64,000 nt of DNA from a virus, in IMG/VR virus record IMGVR_UViG_3300031857_011362, positions 1 to 64,000 of that record; one strand, given 5' to 3'. Each line of letters begins with the position of its first letter. Positions within the stretch are counted from its first letter, which is position 1. Position numbers and translations under genes: made by a program. Below the pieces are notes generated by a model. It had not been told where the DNA came from. It ran no database searches and saw only the letters and a program-made list of their open reading frames with translations. This document shows positions 8,288 through 52,170 of this stretch, piece by piece.

Positions 8288-8296
8288 AGAACACGT

Positions 8297-11200
8297 ATGG
8301 CAACAATACTAAAGAAATTTAACTCGCTTGGTGGATTCTCGGTAGGTGAATTAACACAAACACAAACGCCAATAGACGTAGTAGACGCTAATGCCAACGT
8401 TAGTGCAAATTATCTATCAGTTGGAAATAATTTAGCAGTATCCGGCGACGCTAATATAACTGGTAATACTAGTATTACTGGTAACTTGACAGTACTGGGT
8501 GCCGTATCATATATTCAAACAACTACTACCTACGTATCTGATCCGTTAACAGAAACAGGTGGCGGCCCTAACGGTGCACCTTTAACAAGTGATGATAATT
8601 CAGATAGAGGTTCTGTTCTTCATTATTATGAAGGTAATGTTGCCAATGGTGCTCCAGTTGACGCCTTTATTGGTTGGGATAATAGCAATTCAGAATTTGC
8701 ACTCGCAAGTAATGTAGTAGTGAACAAGGCTAATAACACTGTATCATATAATCAATTTGGTAATATACGGTTGGGTAACATAAGTGCAACTGGTGATATC
8801 AGCACAGCCGGTAATATAACAATTGAAGGCAATATTAATATTACAGGTTCTATTACTTCAGCAGGTGGCAGTGCAGCCATTGTAGGTAATGTAATTCCAC
8901 TGGGAGATCCTTATGATGCTAACTTACTATCACCTGGTGCACTAGATACTTGGTCTAATACCACAACAGTAACTAATGCTATTGATGACCTAAACGAAGT
9001 AATGTTAAATGTTGTTAAAAATACTTTTGTAGGTAATGTAGACTTTACGGCAAACGCAGTAGCAGGTCCTAGTCCATTATCGTTATCATTTAGTAGAACA
9101 TTTAATGGAAATGGTACTAGCTATCTATGGAATTTTGGTGACGGTACAACAAGTACAAGTTCAACACCTACTAAAACATATACTAATACATTAGGTGGTC
9201 AATTTACAGTTAGCTTAACCGTAACTAATAGTAGTGGTATAGGTGCTGGCTCAAGTGACGATAAAGTAAAAACAAACTACATTACATTATATACACCTAC
9301 TCCTATTGCATCGTTTACATTAGACAAAACGTCATTGGATACTGGTACTAGTGTAAGTTTGACCAATACTAGTCAATATGCACAAAGCTATGTGATTTAT
9401 TGGGGCGATGGCACAAGTGATACTATAGCAACAAACAGTGAGGCTGGTGGTACTACTGGCGGTGCAAAAACACATACATATAGTGTAACTGGAAGCGCAG
9501 ATACTAGATATCAACCATATATTGTAGCTACTAGTACAACCGCGGGCCCAATCGATGTGAGTATAACAAGTTCAACACAAAATGTTTACGTATACAAAAC
9601 ACATAGCCCAACATTTACAACAAGTACACTTGAAGGAAACAATGATTATACATTAAATCCAGATGGTTGGAATGTAATATTTACAAATACTACACCTGCA
9701 GGCGTGGGTGCTACATCTACATTCTCTAATAACTATTACAAGTGGACATGGGGTGATGGTACTACATCCAACGTGAATGCAGGTTCGGGTAGTGCAGGTG
9801 ATAGAAACGTTAACATAACTCATAAGTTTAGTTTAACAAATCCAGCAGTAACACAAACGTTTACCGTACAATTAGAAGTATACAATGGATATTCAACTAG
9901 CCCATTCAGTTCATCAACTGTTACAGTAACAGTTCACCCAGATCCACAATCAATCTTTACTGGCAATGTAGTTACGTTGTCTGATAGAACGGGTGACACA
10001 TCACAAACAGGATATTATTTTACTGATTTGAATGGTACTAACAGAGCAATTGTTAGATTTACTAATAGTTCACTAAACACAGATTCATTCAAGTGGACAT
10101 GGGGTGATGGAAGTAATAGTGGAGTAATAACAAGTGGAGCCGGAACACCTGGCTCTACTATTGACCATACATTTACGAGCGTAGGTAATTACACTATTGC
10201 ATTACTAGCTACTGGTACGTACAGTGAATCAGCTACTGATGATACAAATACTAAAACTAATTACATTTCAATTAATGCGGCTCCGGCAGCACCAGCTGGA
10301 TTGAGTTCTAAGACATTAAGTATGAGTACAGCTAGTGTTGGAACAAGTCCATTTTTGGCAGCACTTGCAACTGATAATTCAGGTGGTAATATTCCAGCTG
10401 CCGGCACAAGTGTAACACGATATACAACTGGTACAGTAATAACTAGTACACTTAGTGACGTATACAATTCATATACAGGTACATTAACTAATGAGTTCAA
10501 TGGAGTAGATGATGGTGCTATTGCATTTACTTCTAGCGATAATGCAGGAACATATGGTAATCTAGTAGTTACATTAGATAGAGATGCTCATGTACCTAGT
10601 CCGGCTACTTACCCTAGTGATTTCTATAAAGTTTTTTCAGCATACGCAACAAAAACAATTTCTTCTGTAAGTACAGGTTATAATCAAATCAAACTAACAC
10701 ATTCTACTACTGGAAATACAAACCCAGCTGGTTTTGTTAAAGACGATTTAACGTCAGTACCAACGGTAGACGTTTCTGGTGCCACACTCACTACAGGAAC
10801 AGCAGGCACTTACTTGTATATTTCGGGTGTTCCGTACTTTAACACAGGTAGTCCAACTGTATCATTAGCTGGCGCACAGATTTATGACTGGATAGGTCAA
10901 ACTTATCGAAATACTACAACACCATTTACTATCGCACCGGATACAAACGATGAAAGTACAACAGGTAACGTTATTGTGTCGCAGACTAAAACATATAGTA
11001 ATTTAGATGGTGCAACTACATTCTTAGCTACTGGTATACCAAAAGCTGACACAGGTAAAAATTCTAGTAACAAATATACTATAGGATCACAAACTATTAA
11101 CGTAGCCCCTGCAAGTACAGCGGCAGTTCAAACTATTAAGTATAGTGCTACAAACGTAAATGGAACAAGTGCAACAGCAACTGTAGCTACAAAAATTCAA

Positions 11201-11863
11201 GTGTTTACATCAACCCCTACTGGTTTTGTAGAGACTAGTATTCCTTACGGTGCTACTACTGCTAAACGTATTGTTATAGCCGGAGCGACCGGTGCTAACC
11301 CAACATATAATAGTGCAACAAATTATTATTTAAACAACGCATGGTCTGGTGCGGTAACAATTGCAGGTACTGATGAAGCAGTGGTTCGTTGGAATCAACT
11401 AAAGTGGTTCAATACTAATTTGAGTACAGGGTATTTACCAGTAGGACCTAATTTAAATTCAGGTAGAACTAGTGGAAATCAATACTTCCGTGGTGCATTT
11501 TCAAAAACATTGGTTCAAAATTTTAGAGTTACTATAACAGGTAAAATATCAGGACTATTCTTTGCAGTTCCAGGCACAACGATTGATACAGCTAGTACGT
11601 TGAATGGTTGGATTGATGCATCAATAACATACGATGGCGCAGGCGTACCTGGTGCAGGCGCTGGAGGAAATGGCAGTAACGGTTGTGCTAGTACACCTGG
11701 AGATAGAGTCCCTCTAGGTTCAGTAATTTCTGGAACAACATATAATATGACATTGGGTTCAGTGAGTACCGGAACTGCGATTTCAGGTTCTACCGGTAAT
11801 CAAGTACTATTCAGTATAGTGTTAGCCTCAGGAGATTATATAACATCATGGAGTTTTAGTTAA
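8297..11863 (+). CDS. Large virion protein with four PKD-like domains
   Basis: A 1188-residue protein. The first 20 residues hold KFNSLGGFSVGEL, as in the two preceding genes, then GN repeats and a DRG/GWD module (about residues 76-140). Residues about 249-660 contain four PKD-like Ig folds marked by WNFGDGTTS, IYWGDGTSD, WTWGDGTTSN and WTWGDGSNSG. PKD domains are known in extracellular adhesins and glycan-active proteins, so this part probably projects from the particle. The rest (about 660-1188) is Ser/Thr/Gly-rich, without a family I recognise, and ends in a Gly-rich stretch (GAGAGGNGSNG) and a beta-rich tail. The stop overlaps the next ATG by one base. Function in host or surface binding is an inference. 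Confidence 0.75.
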   Translation: MATILKKFNSLGGFSVGELTQTQTPIDVVDANANVSANYLSVGNNLAVSGDANITGNTSITGNLTVLGAVSYIQTTTTYVSDPLTETGGGPNGAPLTSDDNSDRGSVLHYYEGNVANGAPVDAFIGWDNSNSEFALASNVVVNKANNTVSYNQFGNIRLGNISATGDISTAGNITIEGNINITGSITSAGGSAAIVGNVIPLGDPYDANLLSPGALDTWSNTTTVTNAIDDLNEVMLNVVKNTFVGNVDFTANAVAGPSPLSLSFSRTFNGNGTSYLWNFGDGTTSTSSTPTKTYTNTLGGQFTVSLTVTNSSGIGAGSSDDKVKTNYITLYTPTPIASFTLDKTSLDTGTSVSLTNTSQYAQSYVIYWGDGTSDTIATNSEAGGTTGGAKTHTYSVTGSADTRYQPYIVATSTTAGPIDVSITSSTQNVYVYKTHSPTFTTSTLEGNNDYTLNPDGWNVIFTNTTPAGVGATSTFSNNYYKWTWGDGTTSNVNAGSGSAGDRNVNITHKFSLTNPAVTQTFTVQLEVYNGYSTSPFSSSTVTVTVHPDPQSIFTGNVVTLSDRTGDTSQTGYYFTDLNGTNRAIVRFTNSSLNTDSFKWTWGDGSNSGVITSGAGTPGSTIDHTFTSVGNYTIALLATGTYSESATDDTNTKTNYISINAAPAAPAGLSSKTLSMSTASVGTSPFLAALATDNSGGNIPAAGTSVTRYTTGTVITSTLSDVYNSYTGTLTNEFNGVDDGAIAFTSSDNAGTYGNLVVTLDRDAHVPSPATYPSDFYKVFSAYATKTISSVSTGYNQIKLTHSTTGNTNPAGFVKDDLTSVPTVDVSGATLTTGTAGTYLYISGVPYFNTGSPTVSLAGAQIYDWIGQTYRNTTTPFTIAPDTNDESTTGNVIVSQTKTYSNLDGATTFLATGIPKADTGKNSSNKYTIGSQTINVAPASTAAVQTIKYSATNVNGTSATATVATKIQVFTSTPTGFVETSIPYGATTAKRIVIAGATGANPTYNSATNYYLNNAWSGAVTIAGTDEAVVRWNQLKWFNTNLSTGYLPVGPNLNSGRTSGNQYFRGAFSKTLVQNFRVTITGKISGLFFAVPGTTIDTASTLNGWIDASITYDGAGVPGAGAGGNGSNGCASTPGDRVPLGSVISGTTYNMTLGSVSTGTAISGSTGNQVLFSIVLASGDYITSWSFS

Positions 11864-17600: not shown

Positions 17601-18726
17601 ATTGAGTGTTACTGGTACAGCCAATATATCTGGTCAAGTAATTGCAGGTAACTTAAAAACAGATAGTTTGACTACTGGTCGTGTTACCTTACAAGGTGCA
17701 GGTAATGTATTAGCTGATAATGCTAACTTAACATTCAGTGGTACTGAATTGAGTGTTACTGGTACAGCCAATATATCTGGTCAAGTAATTGCAGGTAACG
17801 TTAAAACAGCTAGCCTAACTGTTGGCCGTGTAACATTTGCTGGTACTGGAAATATATTAGCTGACGATGAAGGCTTAACATTTGATGCATCAACTAATGA
17901 ATTACAGAGTGGAAATGCTAACGTTGCAGTTAATATGACTGCGGGTAATGTCACTTCACGTAACTTAACTTCAGGTAGAATTACGTTTGCAACATCAGGT
18001 GGATTACTATCTGACAATGCAAACTTGTTGTTTAATACAACTGGTAATATTCTCACAGTTGACAATGTGACCGCATCGGGTAATGTAAATGCTGGACAAT
18101 TTATTGGTAATGGTGTTCAACTTAGTAACGTTGCCGGTGGTAATGTTTCTGGTCAAGTTGCTAATGCATTAGTTGCAGGTACGGTTTATACTGCGGCACA
18201 ACTAAACATTACTAGCGTAGGTAATTTGACCGGATTAACTGTAACTGGTTTAACTACGCTAAACACCCTTGCTAATGTTAAAATTTCCGGTGGTGCAAAT
18301 GGTCAAATTATTTCAACAGATGGCGCAGGCAATTTAAGTTTCATATCTAATGATAGTGGTACAATTGTAAATGGTACAAGTAACGTAAGCATCCCCACTC
18401 TAAATGGTAACATCATTATGGTCAGCGGAGGAAATACTGTACTTACTGTGACTGGTGTAGGAGCTAATATAACTGGTACACTTGACGTAACTGGTAACAT
18501 TAGTGGTAATAATATATCTGCCGCAAATACAATTACTGCATCAGCTAATACAGATTCAACATCTAGTATTACTGGTACAATAAAAGTAACAGGTGGTATG
18601 GCAGCAACGGGTAATATCTATACTGGTAAATCAGTTGGATTTGCTAACAACAACGGTGGAACTACTAGTAAGGCATACATTCAATTCAACGACACTGCAA
18701 ATAGTTTAGACTTCATCTTCAATTAA
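14629..18726 (+). CDS. Giant GN-repeat fibre protein (1365 aa)
   Basis: The protein starts KGGTRIYGNANVDSTL, like the gene at 18993 (KSGTRIYGNATIDTQL). Residues 42-96 hold a DRG/GWD module (EDPVITLG...DRGLILQY...FLGWDQSLGEF). Most of the rest is GN repeats with the recurrent QPNITSVGTLTGLTV unit. Around residues 668-807 is a widespread phage-fibre module (RITGLATPTQATDAATKGYVD, then VDGVALAVGNRVLVKDQTTASQNGIYVV). It ends TSKAYIQFNDTANSLDFIFN. A good Shine-Dalgarno (aaagga) precedes the start. No peptidase S74 chaperone is visible at the C-terminus. It is probably a long, thin trimeric fibre subunit; the exact organelle is not known. Confidence 0.75.
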   Translation: MAKLKGGTRIYGNANVDSTLTTLDLVVTGNMTIQGTTTTVDSTITTIEDPVITLGTNATNDGLDRGLILQYNDGAAKTGFLGWDQSLGEFAAVATTTFTAANNSVVIGTYGNVHGLHFVGIGDTLSSITGANVTGTVNNANMSAFAGNVTNPAQGNITSVGTLTGLTVGNVTANTTFGNGTITANGVVSITDATISTSTSSGALKVTGGAGVGGNLYVGGNIYGNFAGNIAAKGANTQVQFNDDGVQNATAGLTFNKNDNALTATGTITGGNLSTAGTLSVTGNANVGNLGTVGSIDATGTITGGNLSTGGTLSVTANANVGNLGTGGLITATGNVSGGNLTTAGDVTTVTVTASGNISTTANLSVTGTANVTGIANAAGGFRTGANIDGTGSSSSLNIKYIEATGTANITSTATVGNLVSGGTANVTGNATVGNLSTAGRATVGNLTMSAGALVTGNFIPDTNIAYDLGNSTRAWRDLYLSGSSLILGSQTITSNTDGVTLSNSINTTNITASNTISTVTLNASGAITGANVTANNLSNTQVAFANGSKIVGDANLTFTSTTGTLSANLFTGTLTTNAQPNVTSVGTLTGLTVTSNIVGNIAGFAYTVANGTQSNITSLGTLTSLVVSGNIQSNATVITDNILAKGINVTVTAGTDGNIVLAPQGTGTVDVSSKRITGLATPTQATDAATKGYVDASSQGLDIKNSVRAATTTNITLSGTQTVDGVALAVGNRVLVKDQTTASQNGIYVVASGLWSRAVDADDNGDLTAGSFTFVEEGTYNNDSGWVISTNGEIVIGTDGIAWTQFSGTGSYSASNGVQLIGTNFSANVDNSTIAVVSGALKVKDGLTLVTPNIGVATGTSLNLGSGAIDSGNITVVANADITLSGVDSQITGANLVSATYITGTLTTAAQPNITSVGTLGNLNVATTLNVATNAFIANANGIYTNGYYYANGAAIDFQTAAGNATELQFKATGSNDLASSPNLTFSGTELSVTGTANISGQVIAGNLKTDSLTTGRVTLQGAGNVLADNANLTFSGTELSVTGTANISGQVIAGNVKTASLTVGRVTFAGTGNILADDEGLTFDASTNELQSGNANVAVNMTAGNVTSRNLTSGRITFATSGGLLSDNANLLFNTTGNILTVDNVTASGNVNAGQFIGNGVQLSNVAGGNVSGQVANALVAGTVYTAAQLNITSVGNLTGLTVTGLTTLNTLANVKISGGANGQIISTDGAGNLSFISNDSGTIVNGTSNVSIPTLNGNIIMVSGGNTVLTVTGVGANITGTLDVTGNISGNNISAANTITASANTDSTSSITGTIKVTGGMAATGNIYTGKSVGFANNNGGTTSKAYIQFNDTANSLDFIFN
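17576..17799 (+). repeat. Two identical 77-bp units 147 bp apart inside the fibre gene
   Basis: The stretch 17576-17652 recurs base for base at 17723-17799 (coding LTFSGTELSVTGTANISGQV and continuing). The shift of 147 bp is 49 codons, so the frame is kept. Identity at silent positions points to a recent duplication or gene conversion. Confidence 0.8.
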
Positions 18727-18737
18727 TTGGAGGTGAA

Positions 18738-21938: not shown

Positions 21939-24900
21939 ATGGCAATTTTAAAAATTAAACCATTCAGTATTGATACTGCTGAACGTTTCACGTTTGCTAA
22001 CGCAAATATTACCGGTAATATAGAATCGGGTAATGCAAATCTAGGTAATTTAGCAATAGCTAATTTCTTTAGCGGTAACGGTAGCGCACTGACTTCAATA
22101 GTCGGTGCTAACGTCTCCGGTCAAGTAGGCAATGCATTAGTAGCTAGCACAGTTTATACTGCGGCTCAACCAATTATTACAAGTGTTGGTACGTTAACTA
22201 GTTTAACTGTATCAGGTAACAGTGATCTTGGTTCAGTTGCGAATGTTAAAATTAGTGGTGGTTCTAACGGGTATGTACTAAAGACTGATGGTTCTGGTAA
22301 TTTGTCATGGATAGCCGCTTCGACTGGTAATGCAAATGTTGGTGGTAGTAATTCTCAAGTTCAGTTTAATAACGGTACTAATCTAGCAGGAAGTGCGAAT
22401 CTAACATTTGACACAACAACAAACACGTTGTCTGCTACTAATTTCGTTGGTAACGGTAGTGGATTAACTGGTATTGTCGCTTCAAGCGGCACTGCAACTA
22501 AAACAGCAAACGGTACAAGTAACGTAGACATAGCAACTGCTAGTGGTAATATTACAATGGGTGTTGGTGGTACAGCCGGCGTAGTAACAATTACAACAAC
22601 AGGTATCAATGCTAATGGATACATTACTGCATCAGGTAACATAACTGGTAGTTATATTCTTGGTAATGGTAGTTCATTATCTAGCATCACTGGTGCTAAC
22701 GTAACAGGTGCAGTAGCATATGCTACCACTGCTAATAGTGTCGCCGGCGCTAACGTATCTGGTGCTGTTAATTTAGCAACATTTGCAGGTACCGCTAATA
22801 GTGTCGCCGGCGCTAACGTATCTGGTGCTGTTAATTTAGCAACATTTGCAGGTACTGCAAATGCAGTAGCTGGTGCTAATGTATCTGGTGCTGTTGCATA
22901 TGCTACTACTGCTAATAGTGTAGCAGGGGCTAATGTATCTGGTCAAGTCGCTAATGCACTAGTTGCAGGTACAGTTTATACTGCGGCTCAACCAATTATT
23001 ACAAGTGTTGGTACACTAACAAGTGTAGCTGTAACAGGTAATTTAACTGCCGGTAACGCTAATATATCCGGTACGTTAACTGTTGGTACAATTACAACAG
23101 CAGCCGGTGGTAGTGGTAACATCAGTGGTGTTGATGTTATTTCTGCAAATTTCTTTAGCGGTTCAGGTAATTTATTAAGCAATATTCAAGGTGCTAACGT
23201 AACAGGTGCTGTTGGTTTAGCAACATTTGCAGGTACTGCAAATGCAGTAGCTGGTGCTAACGTATCTGGTGCTGTCGCATATGCTACTACTGCTAATAGT
23301 GTAGTCGGTGCTAACGTCTCCGGTCAAGTAGGCAATGCATTAGTAGCTAGCACAGTTTATACTAATGCACAACCAAACATTACTAGTGTTGGTACATTAA
23401 CAAGTTTAAGTGTTACCGGCGATATTGGTGCAGCCAATCTAACATTAACTGGCAATTTAATTATCAGTGGAACCACAACTTCAGTTAACTCAACAGTTAC
23501 ACGTGTAGTTGATCCGTTGTTTGAATTGGGCGGCGGCGCAAATGGCGCAGCTCTTTTAGCAGACGATAACAAAGACCGTGGTTTATTGTTACACTATTAT
23601 AGTGGATCATCTACCGTTGATGCATTTATGGGTTGGGACGACAGCAACGGTGAATTTGGTGTTGGTAGCAATGTAACCGTAACTAATGAAGTTGTTACAT
23701 TTAATAGTTATGGTAATATTCGTGCTAATGTATATTTTGGTAATGGTAGTCAGTTAACTGGAGTAACTGCAACCGAACTTGGAACATTTGCAAACGCCGG
23801 ATTAACTACAGATGAATTATATCTACAAGCCACAACACGACTAAATGTAACCGCTAGTGGCACATCTGGATATTTATTTGACCAATATGGTGCTACAGTC
23901 AATCCTACAATATATGTTACTAGTGGTCAAACAATAGCATTTAATTTGAATGTATCTGGTCATCCATTTTTAATACAAACGGGTGCTGGATCAAACTACG
24001 ACACTGGCTTAGAACACGTTGATACTACGGGAACAGTATTAACTACTAGTTCAGCACAGGGAAAAGTAGCAGGAACACTATACTGGAAAGTTCCATATGG
24101 CATAACAGGTACTTACAAATATCAATGTTCTGCACATGGCGGGATGAATGGCAATATTATTGTAACTGATGCTAATATTGCAAACATAACCGTTGGTTTA
24201 GCAACATTCGCAACCACAGCAAATGCAGTAGCGGGGGCTAATGTCTCTGGTGCTGTGTCTTTTGCAACAACAGCAAATGCTGTAGCACTTGCAAATGTAT
24301 CAGGTGCCGGAAATATTGCATCTATCAATATCAGTGGAAATGCATCAGAAATATTATATGGTAATGGTGTATTTGCTACCGCTCCAGTAACATATAGTAA
24401 TAGTAATGTAGCAACATTCTTAGCAAGTTTTGGAAATAATAATATCTCTACTACAGGTAATGTAGCATTTAGTGGTGCTAACATAACTTTAGGATCGGTT
24501 TCTAACTTACACATTAGTGGCGGTAGTGCTAATTATGTATTAAAAACAGATGGTACAGGTAATTTAAGCTGGACAGCATTAACAACTACTACGCTAGTTG
24601 TAGATAGATTTACCGGTGACGGTACATGGACAATGCAAACATTATCTGCTACACCCCTTAGTGTAGACTATACGATTGTAGCTATTGGTGGTGTATTGCA
24701 ACCAAGAAACACATACAGTGTATTGGTGGCAGTTATTACATTCAGCGAAGCTCCTCCAGTTGGAGCAGTAGTTGAGATTACAACTGTTACCGGTGGAACC
24801 GGAGGTGGAGGTGGTAGCGGATCAGCACTTACTATACAAGATGAAGGATCAAATTTAACTACTACTGCGTCACTTATTAATTTTGTAGGTAATGGAATAT

Positions 24901-25244
24901 CATCTACAAACGTAGGAAATAGTGTTACTGTTACAGTAAATGGTGGTGCAAGCTGGACATATTCAGCAATTAGTGCAAACACATCAATGGTTCCGTCATA
25001 TAAGTATATTGTAGATACATCAACTGCTAACTTGACATTGACATTACCTGCTTCAGGTACGTTGGGCGATGAAATTTCTATTATTGATGGAACTGGCAAT
25101 GCAAGCACACATGCTATTACTGTAGCTAGAAATGGTGGTAATATTCAAGGTACTGCAAGCGATATGACAGTTACGACTGACAGAGCCGCATTTACTTTAG
25201 CGTATTATAATAGTACACAAGGTTGGTTGTTAACTAACGTTTAA
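21939..25244 (+). CDS. Large fibre protein with cupredoxin-like domain
   Basis: A 1101-residue protein starting MAILKIKPFSIDTAERFTFANANITGN, a type shared with 27911 and 33042. GN repeats with 21-residue tandem units (TANSVAGANVSGAVNLATFAG) fill residues up to 510, then a DRG/GWD module (about 517-580). Residues about 627-745 resemble a type I copper fold: GQTIAFNLNVSGHPFLI with His675, then YKYQCSAHGGMNG with Cys730, His733 and Met736, the C-x2-H-x2-M spacing of amicyanin. A 'FTGDG' beta module follows (888-955), then a C-terminal domain (YKYIVDTSTANLTLTLPASGTLGDEISIIDG) seen in other phage fibres. Copper binding is not shown; the four ligand types are present in order. Confidence 0.75.
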   Translation: MAILKIKPFSIDTAERFTFANANITGNIESGNANLGNLAIANFFSGNGSALTSIVGANVSGQVGNALVASTVYTAAQPIITSVGTLTSLTVSGNSDLGSVANVKISGGSNGYVLKTDGSGNLSWIAASTGNANVGGSNSQVQFNNGTNLAGSANLTFDTTTNTLSATNFVGNGSGLTGIVASSGTATKTANGTSNVDIATASGNITMGVGGTAGVVTITTTGINANGYITASGNITGSYILGNGSSLSSITGANVTGAVAYATTANSVAGANVSGAVNLATFAGTANSVAGANVSGAVNLATFAGTANAVAGANVSGAVAYATTANSVAGANVSGQVANALVAGTVYTAAQPIITSVGTLTSVAVTGNLTAGNANISGTLTVGTITTAAGGSGNISGVDVISANFFSGSGNLLSNIQGANVTGAVGLATFAGTANAVAGANVSGAVAYATTANSVVGANVSGQVGNALVASTVYTNAQPNITSVGTLTSLSVTGDIGAANLTLTGNLIISGTTTSVNSTVTRVVDPLFELGGGANGAALLADDNKDRGLLLHYYSGSSTVDAFMGWDDSNGEFGVGSNVTVTNEVVTFNSYGNIRANVYFGNGSQLTGVTATELGTFANAGLTTDELYLQATTRLNVTASGTSGYLFDQYGATVNPTIYVTSGQTIAFNLNVSGHPFLIQTGAGSNYDTGLEHVDTTGTVLTTSSAQGKVAGTLYWKVPYGITGTYKYQCSAHGGMNGNIIVTDANIANITVGLATFATTANAVAGANVSGAVSFATTANAVALANVSGAGNIASINISGNASEILYGNGVFATAPVTYSNSNVATFLASFGNNNISTTGNVAFSGANITLGSVSNLHISGGSANYVLKTDGTGNLSWTALTTTTLVVDRFTGDGTWTMQTLSATPLSVDYTIVAIGGVLQPRNTYSVLVAVITFSEAPPVGAVVEITTVTGGTGGGGGSGSALTIQDEGSNLTTTASLINFVGNGISSTNVGNSVTVTVNGGASWTYSAISANTSMVPSYKYIVDTSTANLTLTLPASGTLGDEISIIDGTGNASTHAITVARNGGNIQGTASDMTVTTDRAAFTLAYYNSTQGWLLTNV
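22690..22970 (+). repeat. Tandem 63-bp (21-residue) repeats in the fibre gene
   Basis: Units coding (A/S)VAGANVSGAV(N/A)xAT follow each other at 63-bp period, for example tcgccggcgctaacg at 22741 and again at 22804. Neighbouring units are nearly identical, so unit number may change by slippage or recombination without breaking the frame. Confidence 0.8.
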
Positions 25245-25259
25245 CCGAAAGTTAATATC

Positions 25260-27620
25260 ATGGCAAATTATAATTCATTAAAAAACGCGGGAATAGCAAA
25301 ACCTACAGGAAACATAAGTTTGGGTTCGGATTCTAGTAGATACACAGATATCTTTCTGAGCGGTAATGTTAATATTGCTGGTACTAGCTTGACCAGTACC
25401 AATGCTATTGCACCTAGAATAGCATCTATTGCTTATTTAGGTAATGATACAGCAGCCGATATTGCAGGCGGCACAACTGTTACATTAACTGGTAGTGGCT
25501 TTCAATCGGGCGCAGCAGTTTATGTAAGTGGTACTATAGCGTCATTGGTTGTCGTAGTAAGTTCAACTCAACTAACTTTTACTGCACCAGTAAAAGCTGC
25601 AGGAAATTATTCTCTTAGTGTAGTAAATTCAGACGGAGCAACTGCAACATTTATTCCAGGAATACAATATTCAGGTGTTCCAACTTGGTCTACTACTGCC
25701 GGTAGTTTAGCTACAGTATATGAAACATTCGCAATTAGCAACACCTTATCTGCTACTAGTGATAGCACAGTTACATACTCAGTAACATCTGGCTCACTAC
25801 CTGCAGGTGGTTCATTAAATTCATCTACTGGTGCACTAACTGGTACAGCATCTTCGGTTGGTTCTTCTACCACGTATAATTTCACAGTACGTGCAAGTGA
25901 TGGTGAAAATCAAGACACCGATAGAAATTTCAGTTATACAATCAATCCAGACGTAGTAACTTGGTCATCACCTGCAGCAGGTGCAACATTAACCGCTCAA
26001 ACAGGAATTGCATATACCCAAGCATTGAGCGCAACTAGTGCCGCAGGAAAATCTATCACATATTCAGCAAATGCATTGCCCGCTGGGCTAAGTATCAGTG
26101 GTTCAAGTATTACCGGAACGCCAAGTGCGGCGTCTTCTATTGCATCATTAATAACTGCAACGGCTGCAACCACAAATAAAACTGCAACTAGGACATTTAA
26201 TTGGAATATTCCTCTTGCACCTACTTATACCCTAACACCGGCATCTTCAAGTGTTAATGAAGGTTCAGCGTTGACATTTAATGTTGGTGGAACAAATATT
26301 ACCAATGGAACATATTACTGGTCGATTAATAATATCTCAACTGCGGCTGGTGATTTTTCAGCCAGTACTGGTTCATTTACAATAACTTCTAATGCCGGAT
26401 CATTTACAGTAACACCAACAGCCGATACAACAACTGAAGGAGTTCAAGCATTTACGGTGTCATTGAGAACTGGTAGTACTAGTGGTACCATAGTTGCCAC
26501 AAGTAGTACAGTAACAATTAATGATACTAGTGTGTCTCCGATTAATATTCTTTACTCTTGGGGATTTAATGAATATGGCCAGCAAGGCGTAGGTGATACT
26601 ACAAATAGATCTAGTCCAGTGCAGATTAGCAACACTACTACTTGGTCACAAATTTCTGCAGGTAATCTTAGTGGTCTGGCCATCAAAACAGATGGCACTA
26701 TGTGGTCATGGGGATATAATGGCAACGGCACCCTGGGTTTAGGTGACACTCTTCACCGATCCAGCCGAGTACAAATTGGAGCAGGTACTACATGGTCAAA
26801 AATTTCTGCAAATGGGGCTAGTAGCCTGGCCATCAAAACAGATGGTACGTTGTGGGCATGGGGCAAAAATGATAAAGGTCAACTAGGACAAGGTGATACC
26901 ACAAATAGATCCAGCCCAGTACAGATTGGTACACTAACTAATTGGTTAAGTATTTCTGCAGGTTATTATAGCTCTAGGGCCATCAAAACAGATGGTACGT
27001 TGTGGGCATGGGGTCGCGGCGACTTTGGGACGTTGGGTTTAGGAAATACTACAAATATATCCAGCCCAGTACAAATTGGTGCACTAACTAATTGGTCAAG
27101 CATTGCCATTGGCAATTATCACAACGTGGCCATCAAAACAGATGGTACGTTGTGGGCATGGGGACTTAATTCTTTTGGTGGCGCCGCATTACTTGGTTTA
27201 GGTAACGATACTATAAGTAGGTCTAGCCCAACACAGGTTGGGGCATTAACCAATTGGTCAACGCTTCCTGAAAATCTGAAAGGCACACACTGCGTGGCCA
27301 TCAAAACTGATGGTACGATGTGGTCATGGGGATATAATAACAATGGTCGATTGGGCCGAGATGGTACAGGTTCAAGTCCTCTGCAAATTGGTGAATTAAC
27401 TAATTGGTTAAATATTGCTGCAGGTTATGATTTCAACATTGCAGTCAAAACAGATGGTACCATATGGTCTTGGGGGCATAATAACCATGGTCAATTAGGT
27501 GTCACCACAGCCCTGCTTGCAGGCGAGCTTCGCCTGAATTATCCGGCACAAATTGGCGCATCAAACACTTGGTTAAGAGCTGCTGCTGGGCGCCAATTCG
27601 CATTAGCCGGGACAAGTTAA
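25260..27620 (+). CDS. IPT - putative Ig - Calx-beta - RCC1 seven-blade protein
   Basis: A 786-residue modular protein. After a short fibre-like start (SDSSRYTDIFLSGNVNIAG), residues about 51-140 are an IPT/TIG domain (GGTTVTLTGSGFQSGAAVYVSG), about 141-320 are two putative-Ig (He_PIG-type) domains (SGSLPAGGSLNSSTGALTGTAS; ALPAGLSISGSSITGTPS), about 322-425 a Calx-beta domain (VNEGSALTFNV...VTINDTS), and 430-786 seven RCC1 repeats of about 50 residues marked YSWGFNEYG, WSWGYNGNG, WAWGKNDKG, WAWGRGDFG, WAWGLNSFG, WSWGYNNNG and WSWGHNNHG. Seven blades make a closed beta-propeller. All modules are extracellular-adhesin types. It is the first of eight complete RCC1 genes here. Ligand unknown. Confidence 0.85.
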   Translation: MANYNSLKNAGIAKPTGNISLGSDSSRYTDIFLSGNVNIAGTSLTSTNAIAPRIASIAYLGNDTAADIAGGTTVTLTGSGFQSGAAVYVSGTIASLVVVVSSTQLTFTAPVKAAGNYSLSVVNSDGATATFIPGIQYSGVPTWSTTAGSLATVYETFAISNTLSATSDSTVTYSVTSGSLPAGGSLNSSTGALTGTASSVGSSTTYNFTVRASDGENQDTDRNFSYTINPDVVTWSSPAAGATLTAQTGIAYTQALSATSAAGKSITYSANALPAGLSISGSSITGTPSAASSIASLITATAATTNKTATRTFNWNIPLAPTYTLTPASSSVNEGSALTFNVGGTNITNGTYYWSINNISTAAGDFSASTGSFTITSNAGSFTVTPTADTTTEGVQAFTVSLRTGSTSGTIVATSSTVTINDTSVSPINILYSWGFNEYGQQGVGDTTNRSSPVQISNTTTWSQISAGNLSGLAIKTDGTMWSWGYNGNGTLGLGDTLHRSSRVQIGAGTTWSKISANGASSLAIKTDGTLWAWGKNDKGQLGQGDTTNRSSPVQIGTLTNWLSISAGYYSSRAIKTDGTLWAWGRGDFGTLGLGNTTNISSPVQIGALTNWSSIAIGNYHNVAIKTDGTLWAWGLNSFGGAALLGLGNDTISRSSPTQVGALTNWSTLPENLKGTHCVAIKTDGTMWSWGYNNNGRLGRDGTGSSPLQIGELTNWLNIAAGYDFNIAVKTDGTIWSWGHNNHGQLGVTTALLAGELRLNYPAQIGASNTWLRAAAGRQFALAGTS

Positions 27621-27910: not shown

Positions 27911-30418
27911 ATGGCACTAGAAAAAATAAGACCCAGAGTAGTAGATGCAACCGGTAATTACACCTTCAATAATGTAACTCTTACCGGTAACATTTCCTCA
28001 CCTACAGCAAACATAGGAAATGTTACCGGTGTAGACAATATAGTAGCTAGTAGTAGTAGTATTACAGTTACTGGTAGCTTATCAACAACTGCAAATATTA
28101 CTGCTGGTAACATAAAAACAAACAATTTACTGTATGCAAACGGTAGTCCATGGCAAATCGGAACTACAACTACAGTATCGGGCAGTAATTCACAAGTTCA
28201 GTTTAATGACTCTAGTAGCTTTGGCGCTAGCGCAAACTTTACATTTGATAAAACATCTAATACTCTTACTGTTACTAACTTAGTAACAAATGGTTCTGGA
28301 ATAACTAATATAACTGGTAGTAGTGTAACTGGACAAGTACCTAACGCACTAATAGCAGCTACTGTTTATACTAACAGTCAACCTAATATTACAAGTGTTG
28401 GTACACTATCTAGTTTAACTGTAACAGGTAGTATCAATAGTGGTAATGCTGACTTAGGCAATACTGCTACAGCTAATTACTTTGTTGGTAGTGGTAATAA
28501 TTTAAGTAATATTCAAGGTTCAAATATTACTGGTGCAGTATCGTATGCCACCACTGCTAATAGCGTATCTGGTTCTAATGTTTCCGGCGCAGTAACCTAT
28601 GCCGCTACAGCTAACGCAGTAGCAGGAGCTAACGTATTAGGTCAAGTTGCTAATAGTATAGTAGCTGGAACAATATATACAGCGGCACAACCAAATATTA
28701 CGTCAGTTGGTACATTAACTAGTTTGGCTGTAACAGGTAATATCACATCTGGTAATGCTAACTTAGGTAACTTAGTTACAGCTAATTTCTTTACTGGTAA
28801 CGGTAGTTTATTAAGTTCATTAACTTTTGGTAATATCACAACTTTCAGTACTGCCGGAATAACTACAGATGAATTATATCTACCTAGTACAACACGACTA
28901 AATGTCACTGCTAGTGGAGCGTCTGGATATTTATTTGACCAATATGGTGCCACATTAAATCCTGCAATATATGTTACTAGTGGTCAAACATTGGCATTTA
29001 ATTTGAATGTATCAGGACATCCATTTTTAATTCAAACAAGTGGTGGTGCAAATTACAGTACTGGCTTAGAACATGTTGATAGTACAGGAACAGTATTAAC
29101 TACTAGTTCAGCACAAGGACAAGTAGCAGGAACATTATATTGGAAAGTTCCATATGGCATAACAGGTAATTACAAATATATATGCTCTATTCATGGTGGG
29201 ATGAATGGCAATATCGTTATAACCGACGCAAATGTTGCGAACATAACTGTTGGATTGGCAACATATGCTACTACAGCTAATGCAGTAGCCGGAGCTAATG
29301 TTTCTGGTCAAGTAGGAAATGCATTAGTAGCTAGCACAGTTTATACTAATGCACAACCAAACATTACTAGTGTTGGTACATTAAGTAACTTAGCGGTTAC
29401 GGGTAATATAAGTGCAGGTAATGTATTAACTAACAACTTACTATATGCTAATGGTGTTGCATGGTCTTTTGGTGGCGGAGCATCTATTAGTAATGGTAAT
29501 AGTAATGTAAATATTGCAACATCAGGTGGCAATATAAACTTTAGTGCAGATGGTACTGCTAATGTAATGACTATTACTGGTACTGGAGCAAACATTAATG
29601 GATATGCAAATATCTCTGGTAATGTAAATGCAGGTAACGCTAACTTAGGTAATTTAGTTACTGCAAATTACTTTACCGGTGACGGTGGATTACTAAGTAA
29701 TATTGCCCCGTCTAGCTCATTAGTCAGTGGGAACAGCAATGTTAAAGTTAGTACAAGCAGTGATATTTCATTCAGTATGAACGGTACATCCAATGTGGTT
29801 GTTCTTACTTCATTGGGTGCAAACATAAACGGTTATGCAAACATCACTGGTAATGTTACTTTTGGTAATTTAATAGTGTCTACATACGCAAACTTAGGAT
29901 CAGTAAGCGGTCTTACTATTACCGGTGGTAGCAACAATTATGTGTTACAGACTAATGGTAATGGTGCACTAAGTTGGGCGCCTCTTGGTGCATTAGTCAC
30001 ATTAGATACTTTTTCAGGTAACGGAGTTCAAACAACCTTCACTCTGTCTACAACACCGGCAACAATAAACCATACAATTATAAATATTAACGGTGTCCAA
30101 CAGTTTAAGAATTCATACAGCTTGACGGGTAACAGCGTAATCTTCTCAGAAGCTCCCCCAAATACAAGCTATATTGAAATCACCACTTTTGCACAGCGTC
30201 CTACTGTAGCAGGTTATATTAATAGAAAATACATCGGAAATGGATCTGCTAATACATACACGGTAACTGCTGGTTGCGGGGAAAATGATGTGTTAGTATT
30301 TCTGAATGGATTATGTCAAATGCCAGTTGATGGATACACAATAAGTGGAAGTAGTTTAACTTTCTCTTTCGCAATCTCAGCTGGTACCGAAATACAGATT
30401 AGAGAGTTACCTAGATGA
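27911..30418 (+). CDS. Fibre protein with cupredoxin-like domain, second copy
   Basis: An 835-residue paralogue of the 21939 and 33042 proteins, starting EKIRPRVVDATGNYTFNNVTLTGN. GN repeats and VAGANV units precede a cupredoxin-like region (about residues 320-440) with His370 in SGHPFLIQ and Cys425, His428 and Met431 in YICSIHGGMNG. More GN repeats follow, then two phage-fibre beta modules in tandem: LDTFSGNGVQTTFTLS...APPNTSYIEITT and RKYIGNGSANTYTVTAGCGENDVLVFLNGLCQMP...EIQIRELPR. Its stop overlaps the next ATG (ATGA), tying it to the RCC1 gene 30415. A 191-bp block is identical to part of 33042. Confidence 0.75.
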   Translation: MALEKIRPRVVDATGNYTFNNVTLTGNISSPTANIGNVTGVDNIVASSSSITVTGSLSTTANITAGNIKTNNLLYANGSPWQIGTTTTVSGSNSQVQFNDSSSFGASANFTFDKTSNTLTVTNLVTNGSGITNITGSSVTGQVPNALIAATVYTNSQPNITSVGTLSSLTVTGSINSGNADLGNTATANYFVGSGNNLSNIQGSNITGAVSYATTANSVSGSNVSGAVTYAATANAVAGANVLGQVANSIVAGTIYTAAQPNITSVGTLTSLAVTGNITSGNANLGNLVTANFFTGNGSLLSSLTFGNITTFSTAGITTDELYLPSTTRLNVTASGASGYLFDQYGATLNPAIYVTSGQTLAFNLNVSGHPFLIQTSGGANYSTGLEHVDSTGTVLTTSSAQGQVAGTLYWKVPYGITGNYKYICSIHGGMNGNIVITDANVANITVGLATYATTANAVAGANVSGQVGNALVASTVYTNAQPNITSVGTLSNLAVTGNISAGNVLTNNLLYANGVAWSFGGGASISNGNSNVNIATSGGNINFSADGTANVMTITGTGANINGYANISGNVNAGNANLGNLVTANYFTGDGGLLSNIAPSSSLVSGNSNVKVSTSSDISFSMNGTSNVVVLTSLGANINGYANITGNVTFGNLIVSTYANLGSVSGLTITGGSNNYVLQTNGNGALSWAPLGALVTLDTFSGNGVQTTFTLSTTPATINHTIININGVQQFKNSYSLTGNSVIFSEAPPNTSYIEITTFAQRPTVAGYINRKYIGNGSANTYTVTAGCGENDVLVFLNGLCQMPVDGYTISGSSLTFSFAISAGTEIQIRELPR
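28706..28896 (+). repeat. 191-bp block identical to 33642-33832
   Basis: The two paralogous fibre genes (27911 and 33042) carry the same 191 bases at these positions, and similarity continues beyond with scattered changes through the cupredoxin-like region. Exact identity including silent sites indicates recent gene conversion or duplication. Confidence 0.85.
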
Positions 30419-32988
30419 GTCAAACAAAAATAGATATTTCAAACTTATCAGATGCTGTAATTGCAGCATTGTCTGTGCCAAAAATTACCTCGATAACATA
30501 TCCAGGAGATGATACTGCTGCAAACCCAACTGGCGGGCAAGAGATCATTCTTACTGGTTCAGGATTTGGTACTGGTGCAATTGTACATGTTGCAGGTGTT
30601 CCTGTATCAGTATCATCAGTGGTAAATAATAATACTCTCTCTTTCACTAGTCCAGCTAAATCTACTGGTACATATTCATTGGCAGTCATTAACACAGACG
30701 GTGGAATTGCTACTTCTATTTCTAACATAGAATATTCCGGTGTACCAGCTTGGTCAACCCCTGCGGGCACACTAGGTACATTATATGAAGCATCATCCAT
30801 TAATGCACAATTAACCGCAACTAGTGACAGCACAGTAACATATGCAGTCACTGCAGGGGTTTTACCCACCGGTGGTTCATTAAATTCATCTACTGGTGCA
30901 CTGACTGGTACAGCATCTTTGGTTGGTTCTTCAACTACTTATAGTTTTACAATAGATGCGGTTGATGCAGAACAACAGGACACTAGCAGAAATTTCAGTT
31001 TTACAGTCAATCCAGACGTAGTTACTTGGTCATCACCTGCTGAAGGTGCAACATTGACTGGCACTCAAGACACTGCATTTAGTCAAGAATTGAGTGCAAC
31101 TAGTGCAGCAGGTAGGACAATTTCATATTCCGCAAATGCATTACCGTCTGGATTAAGCATCAGTGGATCAACCATTACCGGAACACCTACTGTAGGTTAT
31201 TCTAGTTCATCACTAATAACTGCGACAGCCGCAACTACAGGTAGAACTGCAACTAGAACATTTGTTTGGAATATTGCTTCACTTGCACCTACTTACACCA
31301 TAACACCGGCATCTTCAAGTGTTAATGAGGGTTCAGCATTGACATTTAATGTTGGTGGAACAAATATTACCAATGGAACATATTACTGGTCAATTAATAA
31401 TACCACTACTGCGGCTGGTGATTTTTCTGGCTCAGTAACTTCTGGTTCATTTACAATAACCTCTAATGCTGGTTCATTTACTGTAACAGCAACGGCTGAT
31501 GCAACAACAGAAGGAGCAGAAACATTTACGGTGTCATTGAGAACTGGTAGTACCAGTGGTACCATAGTTGCAACAAGTAGTACTGTAACTATTAATGATA
31601 CTAGTTTAACACCTACTTACACCATAACACCGGCATCTTCAAGTGTTAATGAAGGTACATCATTGACATTTACTGCAGGTGGAACAAATATTACCAATGG
31701 AACATATTACTGGTCAATTAATAATATCTCAACTGCGGCTGGTGATTTTTCAGCTAGTACTGGTTCATTTACAATAACATCAAATGCTGGTTCATTTAAT
31801 GTAACAGCAACGGCTGATGTAACAACAGAAGGTGCTCAAACATTTACAGTGTCATTGAGAACTGGTAGTGTTAGTGGTACCATAGTTGCAACAAGTAGCA
31901 CTGTAACTATTAATGATACTAGTTTGACTCTTTGGTCACCAATATCTGGTAAATTATTCACATGGGGCAGGAATGACTATGGCCAAATGGGTATCGGTGT
32001 TACTGGTGGAGGACTCTCTCCTACTCAAGTCGGTGCATTATCTACCTGGGTAAAAATTGACGGCGGCAATACAAGAACTGCAGGATTCAAAAATGATGGT
32101 ACTATGTGGACCTGGGGAACTTATGCCGATCAGGTTAGCGGATCATGGATTGATAGATCATCTCCCGTCCAAGTTGGTACAGAAACTAATTGGCGCGATA
32201 TGGCAGCAGGGACGTTTCACACCCTAGGAGTAAAAGACACCGGTACATTATGGGGCTGGGGAGTGCAGCAGCAAGGAGAAATTGTCAATCCAGGGCAATT
32301 CCCCTTACCTCAGCAGATAGGTACATTAACTAATTGGTCATCAGTTGGCGCCGCGTCATATTCATCGGCAGCTATCAAGACAGATGGTACACTGTGGACC
32401 TGGGGACAGAATGATTTTGGACAATTGGGATTAGGAACCACAATAAATATTTCAAGTCCTCAGCAAGTTGGTGCATTAACTAATTGGTATCAGGTTAGTG
32501 TGGGCAGTTCGAAATATATGATGGCTCTCAAGACAAATGGTACACTTTGGGCATGGGGTAACGGTGCTTGGGGCCAACTGGGCCTAGGTAGCGGAACCAA
32601 CGTTACTAGCCCGGTACAAATTGGTGCATTAACTAATTGGTCAAGTATTTCCGCCGGCGGATACACCTCAGCAGCAATCAACACGTCCAACGCATTGTGG
32701 GTCTGGGGAATTAACAACTATGGGGGGTTAGGACAAGGTGACACTATTAGCCGCTCTAGTCCTGTACAAGTTGGAACTGATTATTCTAAAGTTGCTGCAA
32801 ACTTTTCTCGCATAGCAGCTATTAAAACGAACGGTACTCTATGGGCTTGGGGTATCGGAGACAATGGCGGCGGCGGCGTGGGAGATGGTACTTCTTTAAA
32901 TAGATTTAGTCCAACTCAGATTGGTGCACTAACTACCTGGCTAAATGTATATTCACCAGAGAACACCAATGGGGCAATTAGGTCCTAA
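30415..32988 (+). CDS. IPT - putative Ig - two Calx-beta - RCC1 seven-blade protein
   Basis: An 857-residue protein with the same order as the 25260 protein: IPT/TIG (about 23-105, GGQEIILTGSGFGTGAIVHVAG), two putative-Ig domains (about 107-290), but two tandem Calx-beta domains (about 291-398 and 399-504, each VNEG...VTINDTS), then seven RCC1 blades (510-857; FTWGRNDYG, WTWGTYADQ, WGWGVQQQG, WTWGQNDFG, WAWGNGAWG, WVWGINNYG, WAWGIGDNG). The blades are more divergent than in the genes downstream. Start overlaps the preceding stop (ATGA). Blade six is nearly identical in DNA to the second blade of the short gene at 49894. Probably a surface adhesin; the ligand is unknown. Confidence 0.85.
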   Translation: MSQTKIDISNLSDAVIAALSVPKITSITYPGDDTAANPTGGQEIILTGSGFGTGAIVHVAGVPVSVSSVVNNNTLSFTSPAKSTGTYSLAVINTDGGIATSISNIEYSGVPAWSTPAGTLGTLYEASSINAQLTATSDSTVTYAVTAGVLPTGGSLNSSTGALTGTASLVGSSTTYSFTIDAVDAEQQDTSRNFSFTVNPDVVTWSSPAEGATLTGTQDTAFSQELSATSAAGRTISYSANALPSGLSISGSTITGTPTVGYSSSSLITATAATTGRTATRTFVWNIASLAPTYTITPASSSVNEGSALTFNVGGTNITNGTYYWSINNTTTAAGDFSGSVTSGSFTITSNAGSFTVTATADATTEGAETFTVSLRTGSTSGTIVATSSTVTINDTSLTPTYTITPASSSVNEGTSLTFTAGGTNITNGTYYWSINNISTAAGDFSASTGSFTITSNAGSFNVTATADVTTEGAQTFTVSLRTGSVSGTIVATSSTVTINDTSLTLWSPISGKLFTWGRNDYGQMGIGVTGGGLSPTQVGALSTWVKIDGGNTRTAGFKNDGTMWTWGTYADQVSGSWIDRSSPVQVGTETNWRDMAAGTFHTLGVKDTGTLWGWGVQQQGEIVNPGQFPLPQQIGTLTNWSSVGAASYSSAAIKTDGTLWTWGQNDFGQLGLGTTINISSPQQVGALTNWYQVSVGSSKYMMALKTNGTLWAWGNGAWGQLGLGSGTNVTSPVQIGALTNWSSISAGGYTSAAINTSNALWVWGINNYGGLGQGDTISRSSPVQVGTDYSKVAANFSRIAAIKTNGTLWAWGIGDNGGGGVGDGTSLNRFSPTQIGALTTWLNVYSPENTNGAIRS
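31287..31928 (+). repeat. Tandem duplication of the Calx-beta domain (about 320 bp each)
   Basis: Units 31287-31610 and 31611-31928 code two Calx-beta domains, both opening acctacttacaccataaca. The second lacks two codons (SASTGS against SGSVTSGS). Long stretches are identical, and similar blocks recur near 26220, 40900 and 42905. Confidence 0.8.
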
Positions 32989-33041: not shown

Positions 33042-35195
33042 ATGGCCATTACTAGACTCCCCGGTTTCATTATAGACAGTACAACTTCGTTTACGTTTGC
33101 AAATGTAAGTGTGACGAGTAATGTCACGGCTAGTAATGCTAATTTAGGAAACGCAGCAACCGCAAACTTCTTTATAGGTAACGGTAGTCTATTGACAGGT
33201 ATCATTGCATCTGGTGGTACAGCAACTAAAACAGCAAATGGTACAAGTAACGTAGATATTACAACTGCTAATGGCAACATTACAATGGGTGTTGGTGGAA
33301 CCGGTAATGTAGTTATTGTAACTACCACTGGTGTTAATGTTGCAGGTACATTAAATGCGACTGGTAATCTAACAGCCGCTAATGCTAACTTGGGTAATCT
33401 AGTAATAGCTAATTTCTTTGCCGGTAATGGTAGTTCATTAACATCTATCACTGGTGCTAACGTAACAGGCGGAGTTAGTTTTGCGGCAACTGCAAATGCA
33501 GTAGCTGGTGCTAATGTCTCAGGTGCAGTAGCATATGCAACAACTGCTAACGCAGTAGCCGGCGCTAATGTCTCTGGACAAGTAGCTAATGCATTGGTCG
33601 CTGGTACTGTATATACTGCGGCCCAGCCAAATATCACCAGTGTTGGTACATTAACTAGTTTGGCTGTAACAGGTAATATCACATCTGGTAATGCTAACTT
33701 AGGTAACTTAGTTACAGCTAATTTCTTTACTGGTAACGGTAGTTTATTAAGTTCATTAACTTTTGGTAATATCACAACTTTCAGTACTGCCGGAATAACT
33801 ACAGATGAATTATATCTACCTAGTACAACACGGCTAAATGTCACTGCTAGTGGATCAAGTGGATATCTATTTGACCAACACGGCGCTACAATAAATCCTG
33901 CAATATATGTTACTAGTGGTCAAACATTGGCATTTAACTTAAATGTATCTGGTCATCCATTTTTAATTCAAACAAGTGGTGGTGCAAACTATAATGTTGG
34001 TTTAGAACATGTTGATAGTACAGGAACAGTATTAACTACTAGTTCAGCACAAGGACAAGTAGCAGGAACATTATACTGGAAGATACCGTATGGCATAACA
34101 GGTAATTACAAATATATATGCTCTATTCATGGTGGGATGAATGGTAATATTGTTGTAACCGACGCAAATGTTGCGAACATAACTGTTGGATTGGCAACAT
34201 ATGCTACTACAGCTAATGCAGTAGCAGGAGCTAATGTCTCTGGTCAAGTAGGCAATGCATTAATCGCAGACACAGTTTATACTGCGGCTCAACCTAATAT
34301 TACAAGTGTCGGCACATTAACAAGTTTAGCCGTTACTGGTAATATCACATCTGGCAACGCTAATTTAGGTAATGCAGTCACTGCTAATTACTTTATTGGT
34401 GACGGTAGTATGTTGACTGGTATTACTGGTGGTGGCGGTGGTGGCGGCACCCCCGGCGGGGCAAACACTTATATTCAGTTCAATGACGGTAGTGTTTTTG
34501 CAGGTAATGCAGGTTTAACTTTTAATAAAACAAATACTGTTCTTACTGCAAATAATTTAGTAGTAACGGCGACCACTAACTTAGGAGCTGTTAGTAACAT
34601 TACAGTTACTGGCGGCGTGGGTGGTCAAGTACTTGGTACTAATGGTAGCAATATTCTGTCTTGGATTACTCCAGCAACAACTTCAATCACATCGACAACT
34701 GGTATTACGGTTGATACATTTACAGGTGATGGTTCAACTGTAGTGTTCCCTTTAAGTGTTACCCCAGCAACTATTACGCAAACTCAAGTTAACTATAACG
34801 GTGTGTTGCAATTGCGTTCTGCATATACACTGACTGGTTCGACTATTATATTCTCAACTGCGCCAATAAGTGGGTCATTAATTGAAATCACAACGACACA
34901 GGGAGTTAGTGCAACTTCGGGTTCATACGGAGTGCGTTCATACACTGGTACAGGTTCACTAACTACATTTACAGTAACAAATGGCTCAACTACTAGTAGT
35001 GTGCTTGTTACAGAAAACGGAGTATTACAAACCCCAACAACTGATTACACGGTATCAGGTACTGTACTAACCTTCACTACAGCACCGGCTAATGGGGTGT
35101 CAATACAAATTAGAGAGCTTGGTATTTTCGTAGTAAATACCACATCACCTACAACGACTGACATATTAAGTCCGTTCTTATTGATGGGAGCTTAA
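33042..35195 (+). CDS. Fibre protein with cupredoxin-like domain, third copy
   Basis: A 717-residue paralogue of 21939 and 27911 (start TRLPGFIIDSTTSFTFANVSVTSN). GN and VAGANV repeats precede the cupredoxin-like region (about residues 257-375), with His305 in SGHPFLIQ and Cys360, His363 and Met366 in YICSIHGGMNG. A Gly-rich hinge (GGGGGGGTPGG, about residues 463-473) separates it from the C-terminal part, which has a VDTFTGDGSTVVFPLS beta module and a second one (YTGTGSLTTFTVTNGST...IQIREL) and then a unique end (FVVNTTSPTTTDILSPFLLMGA). The start is preceded by aaaagga. It is followed at 11 bp by a gene with its own late promoter. Confidence 0.75.
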   Translation: MAITRLPGFIIDSTTSFTFANVSVTSNVTASNANLGNAATANFFIGNGSLLTGIIASGGTATKTANGTSNVDITTANGNITMGVGGTGNVVIVTTTGVNVAGTLNATGNLTAANANLGNLVIANFFAGNGSSLTSITGANVTGGVSFAATANAVAGANVSGAVAYATTANAVAGANVSGQVANALVAGTVYTAAQPNITSVGTLTSLAVTGNITSGNANLGNLVTANFFTGNGSLLSSLTFGNITTFSTAGITTDELYLPSTTRLNVTASGSSGYLFDQHGATINPAIYVTSGQTLAFNLNVSGHPFLIQTSGGANYNVGLEHVDSTGTVLTTSSAQGQVAGTLYWKIPYGITGNYKYICSIHGGMNGNIVVTDANVANITVGLATYATTANAVAGANVSGQVGNALIADTVYTAAQPNITSVGTLTSLAVTGNITSGNANLGNAVTANYFIGDGSMLTGITGGGGGGGTPGGANTYIQFNDGSVFAGNAGLTFNKTNTVLTANNLVVTATTNLGAVSNITVTGGVGGQVLGTNGSNILSWITPATTSITSTTGITVDTFTGDGSTVVFPLSVTPATITQTQVNYNGVLQLRSAYTLTGSTIIFSTAPISGSLIEITTTQGVSATSGSYGVRSYTGTGSLTTFTVTNGSTTSSVLVTENGVLQTPTTDYTVSGTVLTFTTAPANGVSIQIRELGIFVVNTTSPTTTDILSPFLLMGA

Positions 35196-37573: not shown

Positions 37574-37640
37574 TTGCCAGGCCAGATCTGGAAACCTCGA
37601 CAACTGCACTACTAGTACAAAATTAATAAATACATCATGG
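37574..37640 (+). repeat. Intergenic promoter module, copy 1 (copy 2 at 39588-39654)
   Basis: These 67 bases match 39588-39654 with only 6 differences. Both copies run from just after an RCC1 gene to the ATG of a YKVLGQ-type gene and contain a small palindrome (ccagatctgg in copy 1, cctggccagg in copy 2), a constant actactagtacaaaatt stretch and the ATAAATAC element. The promoter has been copied along with the gene module it drives. Confidence 0.85.
37626..37633 (+). promoter_or_regulatory. Late promoter ATAAATAC, 3 nt before ATG
   Basis: ATAAATAC, then atc, then the ATG at 37637. Part of the duplicated 67-bp intergenic module; no Shine-Dalgarno. Confidence 0.68.
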
Positions 37641-52150: not shown

Positions 52151-52170
52151 CGGAATATTATTATGGCTGA
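52135..52170 (+). CDS. Possible 11-residue leader peptide
   Basis: MKNLSTEYYYG and stop. Its ATG stands at the fixed 3-nt distance from the late promoter, and its end overlaps the start of the RCC1 gene (ATG at 52163, stop TGA at 52168-52170). Ribosomes ending here could restart at the overlapping ATG. It may equally be chance. Confidence 0.3.
   Translation: MKNLSTEYYYG

Follow-up and report, generated by a model that had tools for sequence, protein, structure and literature searches.

A cupredoxin-like domain with a predicted type-1 copper site in phage fibre-like and baseplate proteins

Three fibre-like proteins of an aquatic phage, encoded on a virus contig of 124,442 bases (IMGVR_UViG_3300031857_011362), each contain a domain with the cupredoxin fold, in which a His, a Cys, a second His and a Met fall in the register of a type-1 (blue) copper site. 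Our preferred reading, to which we assign a probability of roughly 0.6, is that the domain serves tail fibres and baseplate connectors as a beta-sandwich module stabilised by copper, with a complete type-1 site (His, Cys, His, Met). Computed here are the fold, the ligand register, the conservation of the ligands, the purifying selection on the domain and its recurrence in tail and baseplate proteins. The cupredoxin fold with a type-1 site is of a known kind. Its presence in phage tail proteins appears to be undescribed: searches of the open literature, which covered few preprints and no closed journals, returned no account of it.

Domain copies in the window

The stretch of DNA analysed here, hereafter the window, comprises positions 1 to 64,000 of the record. 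The record carries T4-type head genes (major head protein, phrog_138, and head protease, phrog_207), and the product of one neighbouring gene matches a protein that is annotated in places as a scaffolding protein (jumbo phages, e.g., PA5oct). A homing-endonuclease-like ORF (1467-2063) separates the head protease from the structural gene that follows. Beyond the window, in the 64-90 kb part of the record, radical SAM proteins are clustered (6569-11247 and 17674-18735 of stretch L293; 3924-4916 of stretch L294). The features relevant to the domain are as follows, in window coordinates.

21939..25244, + strand: fibre-like virion protein A, 1101 aa; the cupredoxin domain is residues 628-745
23820..24173, + strand: cupredoxin-like domain copy A, 118 aa
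23961..23963, + strand: predicted His ligand of copy A, H675 (domain H48), within SGHPFLIQ
24126..24146, + strand: predicted ligand loop of copy A, CSAHGGM, with C730, H733 and M736 (domain C103, H106 and M109)
27911..30418, + strand: fibre-like virion protein B, 835 aa
28877..29230, + strand: cupredoxin-like domain copy B, with H370 (29018-29020) and C425, H428 and M431 (29183-29203)
33042..35195, + strand: fibre-like virion protein C, 717 aa
33813..34166, + strand: cupredoxin-like domain copy C, with H305 (33954-33956) and C360, H363 and M366 (34119-34139)
25260-27620, 30415-32988, 35909-37573, 37637-39583, 42546-44285, 48732-49874, 52163-53341 and 54577-55707: RCC1-type propeller ORFs

An earlier note, made from the sequence alone, had reported that the ORFs starting at 21939, 27911 and 33042 each contain SGHPFLIQ and, 55 residues later, a loop with the spacing C-x2-H-x2-M, all four candidate ligands being retained in the three copies. 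The ORF translations agree on each of these points. The region 23820-24175 reads through without a stop, the His at domain residue 48 precedes the Cys at residue 103 by 55 residues, and the loop reads CSAHGGM in protein A and CSIHGGM in both B and C. The complete sets are H675/C730/H733/M736, H370/C425/H428/M431 and H305/C360/H363/M366 in A, B and C, respectively.

The whole 124-kb record holds exactly three copies of the domain. Pairwise DNA identity among them is 84-92%, with dN of 0.04-0.10 and dS of 0.27-0.52. The ratio dN/dS is about 0.14-0.22, and the three copies are therefore under purifying selection.

Taken by itself, the motif is weak. Within the window, a loose motif pattern also matches, by chance, one of the RCC1 ORFs (CGYHGIM, inside 52163-53341) and one minus-strand frame. 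The case for more than chance lies in the fold, in the profile match and in the conservation described below.

The earlier note had also placed the domain inside fibre proteins, and the context supports this. The profile phrog_677 (cyanophage gp9, a baseplate wedge tail fibre connector) matches with an E value of 2.4e-28 over profile positions 304-410 of 412, which corresponds to the C-terminal domain of gp9, and the domain recurs in tail proteins of other phages. The whole-length gp9 architecture was not found in the window proteins, where the rest of the phrog_677 match falls in fibre repeats. We considered an auxiliary metabolic gene or a stand-alone plastocyanin and rejected both, since the domain sits inside long fibre-like ORFs.

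At least eight RCC1-type beta-propeller proteins are encoded in the window. An RCC1 propeller follows each cupredoxin fibre ORF, directly in the first two copies and with one small ORF between them in the third, and fibre plus propeller resembles a cassette repeated three times. We rejected a tie between the cupredoxin domain and its RCC1-propeller neighbours, as this arrangement is absent in relatives.

Fold and ligand register

An AlphaFold2 model of the 118-residue domain was obtained with high confidence (pLDDT 95.5, pTM 0.88), and the model and its structure matches identify a Greek-key beta-sandwich of the cupredoxin type. In a Foldseek search against the PDB, the best 50 listed matches were all cupredoxin-fold copper proteins and 133 chains reached an E value of 0.001; the top matches were 2dv6 (E 3e-5), AcoP, rusticyanin, amicyanin and plastocyanin. 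VIA-align superposed the model on the N-terminal cupredoxin domain of 2dv6 (residues 24-133) with a Z score of 10.8 and an rmsd of 1.9 over 92 residues (26% identity), and gave a Z score of 12.2 against the second cupredoxin domain of NirK, whose outline is similar. A separate model of full-length cyanophage gp9 was confident only at about residues 301-408 (pLDDT about 91) and mostly of low confidence beyond them; the confident part matched 2dv6 (Z 10.8, the top match) and rusticyanin. Structure matches in BFVD included giant-virus proteins with folds alike, annotated as "Blue type 1 copper protein" in Fadolivirus and as "Beta-sandwich protein" in Pithovirus and Marseillevirus.

We compared the phage profile by HMM-HMM alignment with cellular cupredoxins, a set made up of plasmid-borne sequences (amicyanin, pseudoazurin, plastocyanin/azurin-family and halocyanin-like) together with plastocyanin sequences. 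The match had a probability of 95% and an E value of 3e-8, and H48, C103, H106 and M109 all aligned opposite the four type-1 copper ligands, reproducing the His...Cys-His-Met order and register of type-1 copper proteins. Control profiles, one reversed and five column-shuffled, gave E values of 0.08-0.75. Masking the four ligand columns of the phage profile still left a match to the same stretch, with an E value of 0.002. The strand Gly and the ligand His are as far apart in the phage domain as in pseudoazurin and halocyanin-like proteins.

A HMMER alignment to plastocyanin 2plt differs by a two-residue slip, with F50 and not H48 facing the ligand His. We gave the HMM-HMM register more weight because both of its sides are profiles. 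In laccases, the first His of the HPFHLHGH motif is a type-1 ligand, and the first His of the phage domain likewise lies within HPF.

A profile built from 42 relatives and searched against the PDB returned only blue-copper proteins and copper nitrite reductases (best E 0.0016). Against the Pfam family PF00127 (Copper-bind), copy A scored 19.8 bits, below the cut-off of 21.2, and scores in a genome search were 14.9-19. A second Pfam hit, Herpes_ORF30, scored 20.8 against its own cut-off of 27 and covered domain residues 40-79 only; we set it aside as chance.

The cupredoxin-like domain proposed in the earlier note is thus borne out by the model, by the Foldseek and VIA-align matches and by the profile register. 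The note's further proposal, a type-1 ligand set with the loop spacing of amicyanin, gains support as a prediction from the HMM-HMM register and from the conservation of the four residues.

Conservation of the ligand residues

Homologues in which the four residues vary freely would, according to the earlier note, refute the site. Our survey showed no such free variation. It covered 194 distinct domains from phages (effective number about 81), 191 of which retain H, C, H and M. The four ligand columns are 96-99% conserved (97.5%, weighted, for the Met column) and rank among the top seven, against 47% for the median column. As seeds could select for ligands, we also ran two ligand-blind searches, with queries taken from the first ~50 residues of other family members and ending before the His. 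The full motif was present at 100 of 101 loci, and the remaining locus is cut by the contig end. A third search with ligand-free patterns yielded 43 further distinct domains, of which 42 keep all four residues.

The exceptions to the motif are L219, which lacks all four residues, L151, which lacks C, H and M together, and L068, in which one His is replaced (H to N). Joint loss of ligands, as in L219 and L151, is what a shared metal site predicts. The affected domain of L151 (1115-1441) is the first of two in its protein; it keeps HPF and has lost Cys, His and Met (YYNDQFLSAL), and the second copy is intact, which places a natural ligand-less variant beside a complete one. In Synechococcus phage S-SKS1, the loop is apparently lengthened to C-x4-H-x2-M (CTTGGHGGM) in a domain that otherwise matches.

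These data bear on whether the residues hold a metal at all. Phage virions are commonly decorated with beta-sandwich domains, and the label Ig-like has been given to some phage proteins of the same fold (P-HM2, MED4-213). This would suit a metal-free decoration that inherited the cupredoxin fold as a plain beta-sandwich and kept the old ligands for packing. Packing, however, gives no reason to keep H, C, H and M in nearly every one of the domains surveyed when their overall identity is low, and the joint losses and the retention of Cys in proteins that otherwise avoid it also argue against such a decoration, which we consider distinctly improbable.

Which metal is bound is a separate matter. 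Copper is scarce in the bacterial cytosol, where phage proteins fold, and zinc or no metal is therefore possible. The cupredoxin fold could instead house a structural ion of another metal, for example zinc, loaded in the cytosol, which offers more zinc than copper. Such a site is in keeping with the acceptance of zinc by cupredoxin sites in vitro and with the presence of AfNiR M150E with zinc (PDB 1ntd) among the structure matches. Yet a strictly kept Met is common at copper sites and rare at zinc sites, and we regard a zinc site as unlikely.

The cysteine content of the proteins is consistent with retention of the Cys as a ligand, although it also admits another explanation. In proteins A and C, the ligand Cys (C730 and C360, respectively) is the sole Cys, and the fibre ORFs neighbouring the domain-bearing ones are mostly Cys-free. 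Among 103 relatives, ligands account for 106 of the 149 cysteines, and 73 proteins have no other Cys. In each of 39 full-length cyanophage gp9 proteins, no Cys other than the single ligand is present. A Cys that is often the only one of its protein could form an inter-subunit disulfide in a trimeric fibre, the conservation of His and Met being incidental. This would leave unexplained why H48, H106 and M109 are as conserved as the Cys and why the residues are in register with copper sites, and we judge it very improbable.

Distribution, possible roles and known systems

In a scan of 50,697 phage records, 337 contained the gp9-type domain, and 329 of these bear the names Synechococcus phage, cyanophage or Prochlorococcus phage. 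The window-type query returned 275 records and the P-SSM5 type 326, and their make-up was as for the gp9 type. The domain is widespread in cyanophages and not peculiar to the window phage; among named isolates, it is almost confined to them. A scan of IMG/VR gave at least 585 confirmed stretches with the domain. Two scans of genome contigs returned no cellular relatives; the patterns used were narrow, so absence is not implied.

The carriers are the C-terminus of gp9, a long tail fibre subunit, a subtilisin-like protein and other structural proteins, and the domain also occurs in a podovirus. It ends the protein in many relatives and lies mid-protein in the window. Four related phage records (G002, G001, G013 and G009) have copies of the domain within ORFs of 4600-5845 aa. 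The S-SCSM1 protein QFG06495.1 bears the domain, and its record notes a virion protein. Virion proteins of S-SCSM1 were determined by mass spectrometry (PMC9602691), from which the note in the record probably stems. We rejected viral nirK as an instance of the same domain; it is an enzyme gene adjoining norB, according to the paper describing it (PMC8115048).

The prevalence of cyanophages raises the question of a redox switch or sensor, an electron-active site whose Cu(I)/Cu(II) state alters the fibre or connector and so makes attachment to a photosynthetic host sensitive to redox state, copper or light at the host surface. In cellular cupredoxins, the type-1 ligand set including the axial Met sets redox tuning, and the ligand set of the phage domain is complete, axial Met included. 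The 329 cyanophages among the 337 named records and the annotation of gp9 as a baseplate-tail fibre connector would also fit such a switch, as would light-dependent adsorption, which has been reported for several marine cyanomyoviruses and the freshwater phage AS-1 (PMC2984593). However, no electron partner is known, light-dependent adsorption may have other causes, and the conservation fits a purely structural metal equally well. The window phage, moreover, is without clear cyanophage identity, the nearest relatives of its ribonucleotide reductase being those of Xanthomonas and Stenotrophomonas phages. We therefore give a redox switch a low probability. A fuller proposal is a redox-active blue-copper centre, built into tail fibres and baseplate connectors, that responds to copper, light or redox state where the phage meets its host and controls whether the fibres attach or deploy. 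It could underlie light-dependent adsorption of cyanophages, and we consider it unlikely as well.

For the copper-stabilised module that we favour, the sequence-based evidence leads us to infer that the domain binds copper; the main benefit would probably be a more stable or more rigid adhesion module at an exposed position, and not electron transfer. The apo-domain would fold in the infected cell within a fibre or baseplate-connector subunit, and one copper ion would be taken up per subunit, presumably in the cell or after lysis. The metal would hold the HPF loop and the C-terminal ligand loop together and may thereby make the beta-sandwich stiffer, as a module standing out from the fibre or capping it.

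Blue-copper domains are known as soluble or enzyme-bound electron carriers. If the copper site is real in the tail proteins of hundreds of cyanophages, then phage particles would be metalloproteins of a new kind, with a reason for copper in virions. It would also provide a testable link between the redox or copper state of the host and attachment, and would assign a function to one part of gp9 in viruses that are very abundant in the ocean. We note as a caution that a viral cupredoxin match need not mean a metabolic gene.

Among known systems, the C-terminal domain of cyanophage gp9 is homologous to the window domain, with the same fold and, in 39 of 39 proteins, the same ligands. At about 408 aa, gp9 carries it C-terminally, whereas in the window proteins, 717-1101 aa long, the domain is central and further fibre repeats follow. 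The N-terminal cupredoxin domain of 2dv6, a three-domain copper nitrite reductase from Hyphomicrobium denitrificans, shares its fold with the phage domain but is part of a periplasmic redox enzyme, and the phage proteins have no comparable enzyme domain. Plastocyanin, pseudoazurin and halocyanin-like proteins (PF00127) have the same fold and the four ligands in register; they differ in being exported carriers with a longer loop, C-x2-H-x4-M, and the phage domain falls below the cut-off of their Pfam family. Amicyanin of Paracoccus has the short C-x2-H-x2-M loop (CTPHPFM) that is also found in the phage domain (CSAHGGM, CSIHGGM), and its fold and profile match as well. Its first ligand motif is HNV, compared to HPF in the phage. 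Amicyanin is an exported single-domain electron carrier of methylamine metabolism, the partner of methylamine dehydrogenase, whereas the phage domain is embedded in long fibre-like proteins encoded in a phage structural gene block.
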